From NCBI GenBank assembly GCA_017386585.1, contig JAFNPO010000058.1, positions 1-33,239 on the forward strand: a DNA stretch of 33,239 nt. Direction: 5' to 3'. Position 1 is the stretch's first letter; every line of letters starts with the position of its first letter. The DNA is from Aeriscardovia sp. Its GTDB lineage: Bacteria; Actinomycetota; Actinomycetes; Actinomycetales; Bifidobacteriaceae. Both the position numbers and the translations under genes were made by a program. The notes below the pieces were generated by a model, which was not told the origin of the DNA, searched no databases, and was given only the letters and a program-made list of their open reading frames with translations. Shown in pieces: positions 19,534 to 29,432 of this stretch.

Positions 19534-20602
19534 AATCACCTTGCTTTCCGCACGGAACGTGCTTCGAGGCCGCGCCCGGCAGCGGGAAGGTGAGGAGCCC
19601 GCGCGCGCGTCAGCCGGATTTTTTGATGCCGGAATAAACCGCCGACATTCCTGACGAGGCCACGGCCGGTGTTCCGACCGCGCGAACGGTTCTCAGTGTA
19701 GTTTGCCGTCCGAAAAATCGATGTGTTTCCCCAAGGCATATCACGTCTTCAGGCGATTGCGCGGACCGTTCTGTCGATGACTGTATTCTTTGTTTCTTCG
19801 TTTGTTCGACTAATCGTTTTCGCCGATTGTCTCGACGGGGAAAACGGGTTGTTGGAAAGGCTGATGGCGATAGTTTTATTAAATTAGTAGCTTTTAGTAG
19901 CTTTGCGCAACGATCAGGGTTCCTTACTTTCTGTCCAAAAATCGCACTGGTGACGGGTGTTTCTCATTGGAACCAGGGTAGCGGATCTCGTTGGCAACAA
20001 CGTGGATTAGTTCCATGTTTCCGCGAAGTGGGATCGCGTGGTTGGTTCGTTAGTAGCTCTTTAGTGGAAATGCTCTTCTGCTTCGAGCAACCGGTACGTG
20101 AAGAGTGAATAGTCCTCAGTGTGTTCCGAACTACCCCGCCACCGTTTCCCAATTGTACAGTTCAAGGCGATGGAAATCCGACGTGGTATCCAGATTGTCG
20201 TACGTTTCCTCCCTATGACCCAATGGGTTGCATTCCAGGGAGTGAGTGCGTCTTCCTCGAGTTTCGCGATGTTCGTCATCTGTGGCGTTACTAATCCGTT
20301 TGTTATAGTTCCGGGTTCTGGATGAACTGGATTTTCTGGTTGTGCCTATGAACCCGCGCTGGTCCTCTAATTCGCATTTCTACGGCAGGACTTTCCCTTG
20401 TTTCCTCCCAATGACATAGGTACCACAGCTGAGTTTTGTCCTTCCTCTACGCTCCCCTTCCTTGATGGATCTGGTATCTTCCGATACTCCTTTTGCGAGT
20501 GCAAATATCCCTACTTGAATTTCGGATGTCCGCTTTTCTTCGTGATGCACGCTCCATGGTTTTTCTTCTGGTGCGTCGTCTTGGCGGTGCATAATGAGGA
20601 AC
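19534..20602. other. 1-kb gene-free region upstream of gltX
   Basis: This divergent spacer between the binding-protein gene and gltX has no frame I can assign. It becomes AT-richer from about 19740 and pyrimidine-rich on the plus strand from about 20380. It holds the tandem 10-bp repeat listed separately. The first 200 bp on the left are GC-rich and contain several imperfect inverted repeats in the leader of the transporter gene, including CTGAGA without the rest of a TPP riboswitch. No tRNA or known RNA was recognised. Confidence 0.4.
19884..19903. repeat. Tandem 10-bp repeat TTAGTAGCTT
   Basis: Two perfect head-to-tail copies at 19884-19893 and 19894-19903. A third copy with one change (TTAGTAGCTC) is at 20050-20059. 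A spacing of 10 bp, one helical turn, would put both units on the same face of the DNA, as in regulator sites; a replication-slippage origin is equally possible. Confidence 0.55.
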
Positions 20603-22135
20603 ATGAGCATTAACACTGAAAATAAAGCGAAAGCTGGGAAGCCTGAGCTTCCTGAGCACGTTCGTTTGCGGTTTTGCCCGTCTCCGACTGGTATCCCACA
20701 CGTCGGCATGATTCACACGGCCTTGTACAACTGGGCCGAGGCGCGTCACACCGGGGGTACGCTGATCTTCCGAATGGAGGACACCGACAGCAAGCGCGAC
20801 ACCCAGGAGAGTCTCGACATGATTATCGAGGCGCTGCACTGGATGGGCATCGACTGGGATGAGGGTATCGGCAAGGGTCCGGACGAGCTCTATTTCCAGT
20901 CTAAGCGTGCTGATGTGTACGCCAAGGTCGCCCAGCAGTTGTTGGACGCTGGCTACGCCTATGAGTCCTATTCCACTGCTGAGGAGATTTCCGCCCGTAA
21001 TCGCGCCGCCGGCCGCCCGGAGGCCTTCGGCTACGATGGTTATGATCGCACTCTAACCGAGGAACAGAAGGCCGAGTTCCGTTCCCAGGGACGCAAACCT
21101 GCTTTGCGTTTGCGTGTGCCGGATGAGGACATTACCTGGAATGACCTCATCCGTGGTCCCATTACTTTCAAGGCTGGCTCCTTCCCGGATTATGTCATTG
21201 TCCGTCCCAATGGTGAGGCCCTGTATACGCTGACCAATCCCGTCGACGACGCCGTTACCGGTGTCAATGTCGTGTTGCGCGGTGAGGACCTGTTGCCCTC
21301 TACTCCCCGCCAGATTGTGCTCTATCGTTATCTAGCCAAGCTAGGAATCGCTAAGGGTACGCCGCTGTTTGGCCACTTGCCGTACGTGATGGGCGAGGGC
21401 AACAAAAAGCTCTCCAAGCGCGACCCGCAGTCCAACCTGTTCCTGTTGCGCGACGAGGGCTTCATCCGCGAAGGCTTGCTCAACTATCTTGCGCTACTCG
21501 GCTGGTCCTTCTCCGCCACGGAGGATGTGTTCAGCATGGAGCAATTTATTGAGAAGTTTGACGTGCGCGATGTTAAGGCGAACCCGGCCCACTTTGACAT
21601 CAAGAAGGCCATCTCCATTAATGCTGAACACATTCGTCGTCTTGATCGGGATGACTTTTTGCGCCGCTCCACCCCGTATCTGTTCCGCGACGGCATCGTA
21701 TCCGCTAAGGACTGGGATGACTTGACTGACCGCGAGAGAGACATTCTTGTTAAAGCCGCGCCACTGGTCCAGCCCCGTGTGCGTCTGCTGGGGGAGGTCC
21801 CTGGTATGGTCGACTCCTTGCTGAGTACCGAGACCTATCTCGAGCCGGCGTCAGATGCTCGCAAACAGCTGAAGGCCGGTTCCGACGAGGTCCTTGACAA
21901 GGCGATCGCTGTCCTTGAAGGCGTGGAGGAAGCTGATTGGAAGGCCGACACGCTCCACCAAGTCCTCAACAACGAGCTCGTCGAGAAGGACGGCATCAAG
22001 CCGCGTCTGGCTTTCGGCCCAATCCGCGTAGCCATCTCCGGGCGTCGCGTTTCCCCACCGCTTTTCGAGTCCATGGAGATCATCGGAAAACCTGTTGTGA
22101 TAGCGCGACTCGCAGAGTTGCGTAAACGTATTTAA
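20603..22135 (+). CDS. gltX: Glutamyl-tRNA synthetase
   Basis: 510 residues from the ATG at 20603. It charges tRNA-Glu with glutamate. The class I signatures are clear: RFCPSPTGIPHVGMIHTAL (HIGH-type motif as PHVG) and KKLSKRDPQSNLFL (KMSKS-type motif). Between them lies the acceptor-binding domain (RAAGRPEAFGYDGYDR), and the helical anticodon-binding domain fills the last 170 residues. An ATG at 20594 gives three extra residues, but CATAAT at 20590-20595 lies exactly 7 nt before the ATG at 20603, consistent with a leaderless start; the GAGG there is too close to act as an SD. It is followed by its own substrate tRNA gene. Confidence 0.96.
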   Translation: MSINTENKAKAGKPELPEHVRLRFCPSPTGIPHVGMIHTALYNWAEARHTGGTLIFRMEDTDSKRDTQESLDMIIEALHWMGIDWDEGIGKGPDELYFQSKRADVYAKVAQQLLDAGYAYESYSTAEEISARNRAAGRPEAFGYDGYDRTLTEEQKAEFRSQGRKPALRLRVPDEDITWNDLIRGPITFKAGSFPDYVIVRPNGEALYTLTNPVDDAVTGVNVVLRGEDLLPSTPRQIVLYRYLAKLGIAKGTPLFGHLPYVMGEGNKKLSKRDPQSNLFLLRDEGFIREGLLNYLALLGWSFSATEDVFSMEQFIEKFDVRDVKANPAHFDIKKAISINAEHIRRLDRDDFLRRSTPYLFRDGIVSAKDWDDLTDRERDILVKAAPLVQPRVRLLGEVPGMVDSLLSTETYLEPASDARKQLKAGSDEVLDKAIAVLEGVEEADWKADTLHQVLNNELVEKDGIKPRLAFGPIRVAISGRRVSPPLFESMEIIGKPVVIARLAELRKRI

Positions 22136-22146
22136 TCCTGTATAGT
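22117..22146 (+). promoter_or_regulatory. Promoter of the tRNA-Glu/tRNA-Gln unit
   Basis: TTGCGT (22117-22122), an 18-bp spacer, and TATAGT (22141-22146), beginning in the last codons of gltX. The expected start point (about 22153) falls within the left arm of the inverted repeat that follows. Confidence 0.55.
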
Positions 22147-22182
22147 TTCTTTCGTTGCACAGGAGCGCAACGAAAGAAACTA
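22143..22182. promoter_or_regulatory. Perfect 16-bp inverted repeat before tRNA-Glu
   Basis: The arms 22143-22158 (TAGTTTCTTTCGTTGC) and 22167-22182 are perfectly complementary, with an 8-nt loop ACAGGAGC. It begins within the -10 box and ends 2 nt before the mature tRNA 5' end. No T-run follows on the plus strand, so it is not an ordinary gltX terminator. It could be an operator, an RNA processing signal, or a hairpin ending gltX messages. Confidence 0.7.
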
Positions 22183-22184
22183 AA

Positions 22185-22257
22185 GCCCCTGTCGTCTAGC
22201 GGTCTAGGACACCGCCCTCTCACGGCGGTAACACCAGTTCAAATCTGGTCGGGGGTA
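22185..22257 (+). tRNA. tRNA-Glu (anticodon CUC)
   Basis: 73 nt. The acceptor GCCCCTG pairs with CGGGGGT (with G1-U72 and U6-G67 wobbles), the D arm is typical of tRNA-Glu, the anticodon stem is CCGCC/GGCGG with CUC in the loop, and the T arm is ACCAG-TTCAAAT-CTGGT. The discriminator is A; CCA is not encoded. It lies 49 bp after gltX, whose product charges it. Confidence 0.95.
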
Positions 22258-22304
22258 CGAGCGGCACTCTGACCGAGTAGTAATACGGTGTCAGTGTTGT
22301 TCAT

Positions 22305-22376
22305 TGGGGTATGGTGTAATTGGCAACACAGGTGATTCTGGTTCATCCATTCTTGGTTCGAGTCCAGGTACCCCAG
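22305..22376 (+). tRNA. tRNA-Gln (anticodon CUG)
   Basis: 72 nt. The acceptor TGGGGTA pairs with TACCCCA, the D stem is GTGT/ACAC, the anticodon stem GGTGA/TCATC encloses CUG, the T arm ends in a TTCGAGT loop, and the discriminator is G. A CCA follows directly (22377-22379), so the 3' end is encoded here, unlike in tRNA-Glu. It is 47 bp after tRNA-Glu and presumably cotranscribed. Glutamyl-tRNA synthetases of many bacteria also load tRNA-Gln for the amidotransferase route; that cannot be judged here. Confidence 0.95.
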
Positions 22377-22383
22377 CCAGTGA

Positions 22384-22414
22384 GAACCTCCAGCGATGAG
22401 CTTGGAGTTCTTTT
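22384..22414 (+). terminator. Terminator of the tRNA unit
   Basis: GAACCTCCA pairs with TGGAGTTC (one bulged C) around a 9-nt loop and is followed by TTTT, 4 nt after the encoded CCA. A second, weaker hairpin GCTCAG/CTGAGC with a TTTT tail follows at 22460-22484 and may be a backup. Confidence 0.7.
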
Positions 22415-29239: not shown

Positions 29240-29342
29240 AGCGGAACGCACAGCGTTGCCGCGGAGTATCGCCGCAAACGTCAGCAATCGAAATCCGGCA
29301 GATAATGGCCAGGAGTGCGACGAATTCGCGCAACAAGTGCGC

Positions 29343-29370
29343 AAAAGCCCGGGATTCGTCCCGGGCTTTT
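29343..29370 (+). terminator. Rho-independent terminator after rpmB
   Basis: A perfect 12-bp stem AAAAGCCCGGGA/TCCCGGGCTTTT closed by a TTCG tetraloop, about 100 nt after the rpmB stop. The flanking A and T runs make it work in both directions in principle. Between rpmB and this hairpin nothing else is seen. Confidence 0.9.
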
Positions 29371-29432
29371 GCGTATCCGAAGACCGCTGCGCATACTGGC
29401 ATTGGCCGAACGGATGCAGGAATTGAGGAATG

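Follow-up and report, generated by a model that had tools for sequence, protein, structure and literature searches.

The DNA that we analyzed, referred to here as the window, is a stretch of 33,239 nucleotides from Aeriscardovia sp., and the genome to which it belongs, which we searched as the organism's own genome, is a MAG of 1.32 Mb in 138 contigs. The window carries a gltX gene, the product of which has its nearest named records in Aeriscardovia MAGs (94% and 81% identity), followed by tRNA-Glu, a 46-nt spacer, tRNA-Gln and a terminator-like hairpin, in that order. The gltX stop lies 49 nt from tRNA-Glu, the two tRNAs are inferred to be co-transcribed, and the terminator-like hairpin is the probable end of the unit. 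The features that we consider are as follows:

20594-22135, + strand: gltX (glutamyl-tRNA synthetase), an open reading frame of 513 aa with stop TAA at 22133-22135; name taken from an earlier note on this DNA
22106-22114, + strand: CGACTCGCA, a degenerate copy of the element CGACAYGCC (7/9 by eye), 26 nt 5' of the -10 and in gltX codons
22118-22123, + strand: putative -35, TTGCGT, inside the gltX 3' end, from sequence and a 17-nt spacing to the -10
22141-22146, + strand: putative -10, TATAGT, the last four bases within the left arm, from sequence and the spacing in relatives
22143-22158, + strand: left arm of the 16-bp stem, from arm complementarity
22154-22158, + strand: GTTGC, the conserved core in the left arm, from comparison with relatives
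22159-22166, + strand: 8-nt loop between the arms
22167-22182, + strand: right arm of the stem, from arm complementarity and the alignment of relatives
22146-22184, + strand: leader RNA element matched by covariance model R1 at 32.1 bits, the window being a training sequence
22185-22258, + strand: tRNA-Glu(CTC), which opens the unit and has no encoded CCA, from ARAGORN and Rfam
22259-22304, + strand: Glu-Gln spacer with a second hairpin (-18.2 kcal/mol, z of -3.2 to -4.4), from folding
22305-22379, + strand: tRNA-Gln(CTG), from ARAGORN
22388-22407, + strand: terminator-like hairpin, then TTCTTTTG, from a terminator scan

Our analysis confirmed that a perfect 16-bp inverted repeat, described in the earlier note, is present at 22143-22182, with arms complementary at 16 of 16 positions and 8 nt between them. 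The repeat ends 2 nt (22183-22184) short of tRNA-Glu(CTC), the start of which ARAGORN places at 22185, and its left arm covers the last four bases of the putative -10 TATAGT (22141-22146). Also as the earlier note described, there is no T-run 3' of the stem, which is followed by AA and then by the tRNA; an intrinsic terminator was rejected, given this lack of a T-run and a terminator scan that lists only the hairpin at 22388-22407. The repeat is the longest perfect inverted repeat in the window (loop of 3-12), and perfect arms in the same loop range reached at most 10 when the window was shuffled 30 times with its dinucleotides preserved. Folded as RNA, the hairpin together with tRNA-Glu reaches -53.2 kcal/mol (z = -5.35), a value equalled by none of 200 shuffles. 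Elsewhere in the window, a 15-bp perfect inverted repeat at 29340-29373 (loop of 4), with an A-run in its left arm and a T-run in its right arm, looks like a two-way terminator, and two further perfect hairpins, at 560-587 (12 bp, loop of 4) and 653-684 (13 bp, loop of 6), lie approximately 65 nt apart.

Relatives of this locus were sampled through gltX, which is present in 150 of the 151 genomes of the family (Bifidobacteriaceae). We examined 119 gltX loci, i.e., 28 with a homologous protein, then 31 and 60 further. Most of the actinobacterial loci among the first 28 have a tRNA-Glu or tRNA-Gln just 3' of gltX, and one or the other was found in 106 of the 119; none was found in 13, in some of which the stretch ended first or the tRNA is farther off. 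Among the distinct leaders, 81 start with tRNA-Glu, and we could anchor 69 non-redundant leaders, each with a -10-like hexamer and, after it, a pentamer that begins with G and resembles GTTGC; because this anchor search favours GTTGC, the frequency of that motif is partly a product of construction, and pairing is not. The 12 unanchored leaders include six (L011-L015 and L017, from Aeriscardovia MAGs with 70-72% identity) that have other hairpins and lack GTTGC, four whose length exceeds the 75-nt stretch, and two more. The distance from the -10-like hexamer to the G of the core is 8 nt in 62 of the 69 anchored leaders, 7 nt in 5 (the window included) and 9 nt in 2, and the lengths of loop and stem vary widely.

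In the window, a stricter consensus scan listed no promoter in the hairpin region, and we therefore treat the promoter as a plausible, unscored reading. G22154, at the head of the core, is the likely region of +1. The motif GTTGC/GTGC and its close variants also occur 6-9 nt past a -10-like hexamer at unrelated tRNA promoters, being found in 19 of 49 leaders of genome G117 (1.6-1.9 expected) and 8 of 34 in the own genome and, among the loci listed, in 9 of 27 in G001, 6 of 25 in G149, 7 of 23 in Actinomyces (0.1 expected) and 0 of 27 in Paracoccus. This motif may mark the start site. A second sequence, CGACAYGCC, is a fixed-distance element upstream of stable-RNA promoters in Bifidobacteriaceae. 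For example, YGACAYGCC is found in 37 of the 69 tRNA-Glu units, 26-29 nt 5' of the -10 in 32 and 37-38 nt in 5, and the element was noted in loci L040-L055 and in other tRNA-Glu spacers. It is present in 12 of 49 G117 tRNA upstream regions (approximately 0.1 expected), and one or two copies lie upstream of each of the four G117 rRNA operons (L295 and L297-L299 among the loci). It may be where an activator of stable-RNA transcription binds; the copy in the window at 22106-22114, CGACTCGCA, could instead be constrained by the GltX protein.

In minimum-energy folds, every one of the 69 leaders has at least four of its core bases paired, and 58 have all five. Each core position is paired in 63-68 of 69 leaders, against fractions of 0.66-0.77 with the downstream part shuffled, and this excess fades toward the -10, with 43 of 69 paired at offset -3 (0.50 shuffled) and 26 of 69 at offset -7 (0.25 shuffled). 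In an alignment of 36 of the 69 leaders, picked for shortness and with the window first, 95.0% of the 302 cells of a nine-pair stem form a pair, versus 88.2% when shuffled (0 of 500 as high). Both-sided changes occur in six of the nine pairs, the covariation score is 0.439 versus 0.303 in the shuffle comparison, sliding the partners by 1-3 columns leaves 36-45% pairing, and RNAalifold recovers the inner seven pairs without guidance. A cruder, noisier and weaker count in ungapped register over all 69 leaders (619 cells) gave 440 Watson-Crick, 96 G·U, 19 A·C and 64 other cells, with shuffled fractions of 0.58, 0.12, 0.04 and 0.26, respectively. The stems of relatives thus keep pairing through two-sided and wobble changes, i.e., they show the compensatory changes that the earlier note had proposed as the mark of an RNA, and it is for this reason that we favour an RNA role over an operator. 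The comparison indicates that relatives keep a structure formed by the tRNA-sense RNA.

The earlier note had also suggested an operator, where a regulator would bind the dyad, cover the -10 and control tRNA synthesis. Such a reading would account for a perfect dyad lying across the putative -10, for a GTTGC that is nearly fixed both in sequence and in distance to the -10, and for the recurrence of GTTGC/GTGC at that distance at other tRNA promoters (the 19 of 49 in G117), and because of this near-fixity and recurrence the left arm may carry promoter information. However, in the 36-leader alignment G·U accounts for 60 of the off-pair cells, C·A for 1 and U·U for 3. The non-Watson-Crick cells are therefore mainly G·U on the tRNA-sense strand, a bias that a DNA dyad would not be expected to show; changes in the right arm preserve RNA pairing by G·U, and dyad symmetry at the DNA level is not kept. 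In addition, the own genome has no second copy of the dyad, and the loops and stems of relatives differ widely in length. The G·U bias rules out an operator as the main reading, and we regard one as very unlikely. The near-fixity of the left arm, set against a right arm that changes by wobble pairs, suggests that the left arm probably serves the promoter or start site as well.

Across all 81 units, the gltX stop lies 44-601 nt from tRNA-Glu (median of 185), and the 69 anchored hairpins cover this entire range. The linker from the pairing partner of the core G to the tRNA has a median of 11 nt and is mostly 10-13 nt, though the span from G to tRNA is 24-58 nt; the linker is shorter where the outer stem forms. 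The hairpin belongs to the tRNA rather than to gltX. Two roles centred on gltX had been put forward in the earlier note, an RNase-processing hairpin for gltX read-through transcripts and a device decoupling the synthetase from its tRNA. Neither is needed, because the hairpin follows the tRNA, persisting with gltX 44-601 nt away, and because comparable hairpins occur in the Glu-Gln spacer and before unrelated tRNAs. Of the three roles that had been proposed, our best guess is still processing, taken in the wider sense of pre-tRNA maturation.

We nevertheless considered a specific form of the read-through reading, in which, at loci where gltX leads directly into the tRNA, the full 16-bp stem exists only in gltX-tRNA RNA and serves either for double-strand cleavage or as a shield, thereby uncoupling the tRNA from the message. 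This would suit a promoter within the gltX end and the 49 nt between stop and tRNA in the window, and it would suit the more numerous outer pairs of compact units (mean of 7.7 in the 25 units with gltX less than 110 nt away vs 4.0 in the 44 others; Mann-Whitney p = 6e-6) and their more stable stems (-22.6 vs -14.9 kcal/mol in the same two groups). Independent contrasts on a tree of the gltX C-terminus do not support it: log distance and outer pairs gave r = +0.27, the opposite direction, with 23 contrasts of opposite sign and 36 of the same sign, and the compact label against outer pairs gave p = 0.42. Lengthening of the stem for read-through was therefore rejected, the strong raw association being lost and its sign reversed, and we treat that association as a clade effect. 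As the hairpin is also present with gltX up to 601 nt off, and similar ones precede unrelated tRNAs, we consider a read-through device unlikely.

The same distances bear on a terminator or pause hairpin without a U-run, which would stop gltX transcription ahead of the tRNA. Terminators lacking a T-run have been proposed in actinobacteria, and in compact loci a strong stem does directly follow the gltX stop. However, the hairpin keeps its position with respect to the promoter and 5' end of the tRNA, whereas the gltX stop lies anywhere from 44 to 601 nt away from that tRNA. A hairpin of this type also occurs inside the unit, ahead of tRNA-Gln, which termination there would cost; we give this reading little credence.

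Searches for further members indicated that the tRNA-Glu element is distinct. When held-out loci were searched at E up to 1 with a covariance model of the 36 leaders, 16 of the 37 from Bifidobacteriaceae gave a match (L143 among them, which scores higher on the opposite strand), as did 0 of the 6 from other actinobacteria; the model matched none of 40 (of 50) G117 tRNA loci. In the own genome, model R1, for which the window is a training sequence, had no second match at E up to 10. The Glu leader element is thus, as judged by the model, a recognizable family of its own, and the hairpins of other tRNAs share its layout without being recognizable as relatives by sequence. The arm itself, which the earlier note had advised looking for elsewhere in the genome, is not dispersed: beyond two copies, there are only matches with 1-2 mismatches (39, vs 38 in the reversed control). 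A dispersed repeat was rejected, as the own genome has no further close copies. Rfam tRNA matches (RF00005) are present at 22185 and 22305, and no Rfam family exceeds its gathering score at the hairpin, where lax limits gave only sub-threshold matches on the other strand, e.g., mir-242, which scored 21.4 bits where its cut-off is 54; a known Rfam structured RNA or riboswitch was rejected on this basis. Nothing but uniqueness in the genome speaks for a functionless chance repeat, and the shuffle and covariation tests and the matching of held-out leaders by the covariance model speak against it. Covariation in relatives already refutes a chance origin, which leaves this possibility negligible.

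Hairpins of this layout are not confined to tRNA-Glu leaders. Among relatives we identified 65 non-redundant Glu-Gln units, where tRNA-Glu is the first tRNA of a multi-tRNA unit; their 45-nt leaders have a mean z of -3.2 (54 of 65 below -1.5) and their Glu-Gln spacers a mean z of -2.5 (48 of 65 below -1.5). Because the spacer hairpin sits inside the tRNA unit, these hairpins go with tRNA 5' ends and not with promoters alone. For other tRNAs, we used at most 30 listed tRNA loci per genome, with more added for the own genome and G117, and ranges between runs reflect differing random seeds and lengths. Among inter-tRNA spacers of 20-90 nt, those with z < -1.5 number 7 of 8 in the own genome (6 of 8 in a repeat run) and 11 of 13 in G117 (11 of 15), and, among the loci listed, 5 of 6 in G001 (6 of 7), 4 of 5 in G149, 4 of 7 in Actinomyces, 1 of 4 in Mycolicibacterium and 0 of 1 in Paracoccus (both runs). 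In the last 40-45 nt before leading tRNAs, the same threshold is passed by 9-13 of 34 in the own genome and by 15 of 32, 15 of 29 or 21-25 of 49 in G117, depending on the run. The corresponding numbers among the loci listed are 5-9 of 26-27 in G001, 10 of 25 in G149, 1 of 23 in Actinomyces, 5-8 of 26 in Mycolicibacterium and 5-6 of 27 in the alphaproteobacterial control Paracoccus, which is thus somewhat foldable. The stretch 90-130 nt upstream passes in 3% (own genome), 8% (G001), 16% (G117), 12% (Mycolicibacterium) and 4% (Paracoccus).

Measuring leaders from the putative -10 gave a clearer signal than the fixed 40-45 nt, with 20 of 26 in G117 and 10 of 25 in the own genome at z < -1.5, and, among the loci listed, 15 of 22 in G149, 8 of 23 in G001, 7 of 13 in Mycolicibacterium, 3 of 13 in Actinomyces and 1 of 3 in Paracoccus. 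In six actinobacterial genomes, the first paired base lies 5-9 nt past the putative -10 in 0.50-0.71 of folded leaders, against 0.15-0.26 when shuffled; for G117, G149, the own genome and G001, the range is 50-71%, with 18-26% after shuffling. The -10 positions were picked automatically, and the starts are putative. Two Mycobacterium/Mycolicibacterium gltX loci (L030 and L031) have strong 10-11-bp hairpins just 5' of tRNA-Gln, which suggests that the layout extends beyond bifidobacteria. As the alphaproteobacterial control is thin, a restriction to Actinobacteria is not established. We tentatively suggest, at slightly less than even odds, that in Bifidobacteriaceae, and perhaps in Actinobacteria at large, a small hairpin systematically precedes each tRNA as a general precursor architecture. 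This would comprise a +1 stem-loop on promoter-proximal tRNAs and spacer hairpins between tRNAs, would leave a few single-stranded nucleotides at each RNase P site, would differ from the unpaired leaders on which E. coli RNase P is described as working best, and would have the 16-bp repeat as its most regular example in this genome.

The repeat forms a structure that is conserved as RNA, keeps a set position between -10 and tRNA, and does not depend on gltX. It is best explained, with a probability of roughly 60%, as the 5'-leader stem-loop of a tRNA-Glu-tRNA-Gln precursor that insulates the leader and sets the access of RNase P. In this model, a promoter overlapping the gltX end would start the transcript at or just before GTTGC, and the RNA would fold at once into a 5'-terminal hairpin, leaving a linker between hairpin and tRNA. 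The hairpin would keep the leader from base-pairing to the body or 3' end of the tRNA, may protect the 5' end against decay, and may set the length of single-stranded leader that the processing enzyme, presumably RNase P, can grip. The similar hairpin in the Glu-Gln spacer would serve the second tRNA likewise, and the two could, if at all, order the cleavage of Glu and Gln. The outer 10-11 bp would lie upstream of a normal start, and a promoter-made transcript would therefore hold only approximately 5-6 bp of the stem. The design is compatible both with a distal insulating hairpin, where the stem is short and the linker long, and with a brake, where the whole stem forms and 2 nt are left in the window; for promoter-made RNA we favour, at about the confidence given to the model as a whole, insulation together with 5'-end protection. 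The full-length hairpin could hinder RNase P, since its right arm stops 2 nt short of the tRNA and, in E. coli, structure this close to the cut is reported to slow the enzyme (PMC9433436).

Leader structure was previously known as an RNase P brake in single E. coli cases, and a family-wide, covarying leader hairpin that is tied to promoter and tRNA end, together with its counterparts in inter-tRNA spacers, suggests that some bacteria encode precursor folding and access to cleavage in their spacers. This makes testable the question of whether leader structure sets how fast, and in which order, tRNAs mature in vivo, and it provides a clean, covariation-based case where an apparent promoter operator is really an RNA. 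Searches of open-licence full texts yielded no description of hairpins in the tRNA leaders or spacers of bifidobacteria or actinobacteria, and as far as the open literature shows, a family-wide covarying leader hairpin with spacer companions is new; a prior description elsewhere is possible.

The nearest known systems are those where leader structure affects RNase P. Bacterial RNase P is reported to act best on leaders that are single-stranded; its protein subunit touches leader bases 5' of -3, and leader pairing with the 3' RCCA or with distal sequence slows cleavage (PMC9433436; PMC10731613). A distal leader stem-loop has been engineered to keep added leader out of inhibitory structure (PMC9433436; PMC10731613). 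In E. coli, RNase P is slowed by structure close to its cleavage site, and leader stem-loops can be anti-determinants for it; for example, the valV leader stem-loop inhibits cleavage at its site and enforces directional processing of valVW (PMC9433436). The hairpin described here is like that of valV in being a leader stem-loop on the first tRNA of a two-tRNA unit and near the RNase P site (PMC9433436). The valV case concerns valine tRNAs of one E. coli operon, whereas here the unit is a bifidobacterial Glu-Gln unit and the hairpin covaries family-wide; unlike valV, the stem lies at the inferred start site, and a second hairpin is present in the spacer. By analogy, the hairpin would work like known leader stem-loops, with a valV-like slowing of RNase P and ordering of cleavage as putative effects. 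A further likeness is to the 5' stem-loop of ompA, which stabilizes its transcript. The ompA 5' stem-loop is named in PMC4681348, and the hairpin upstream of tRNA-Glu would resemble that type in its place at the very 5' end of the transcript, given the putative start; ompA is an mRNA, whereas here the RNA is a tRNA precursor, the leader of which would be removed by RNase P.
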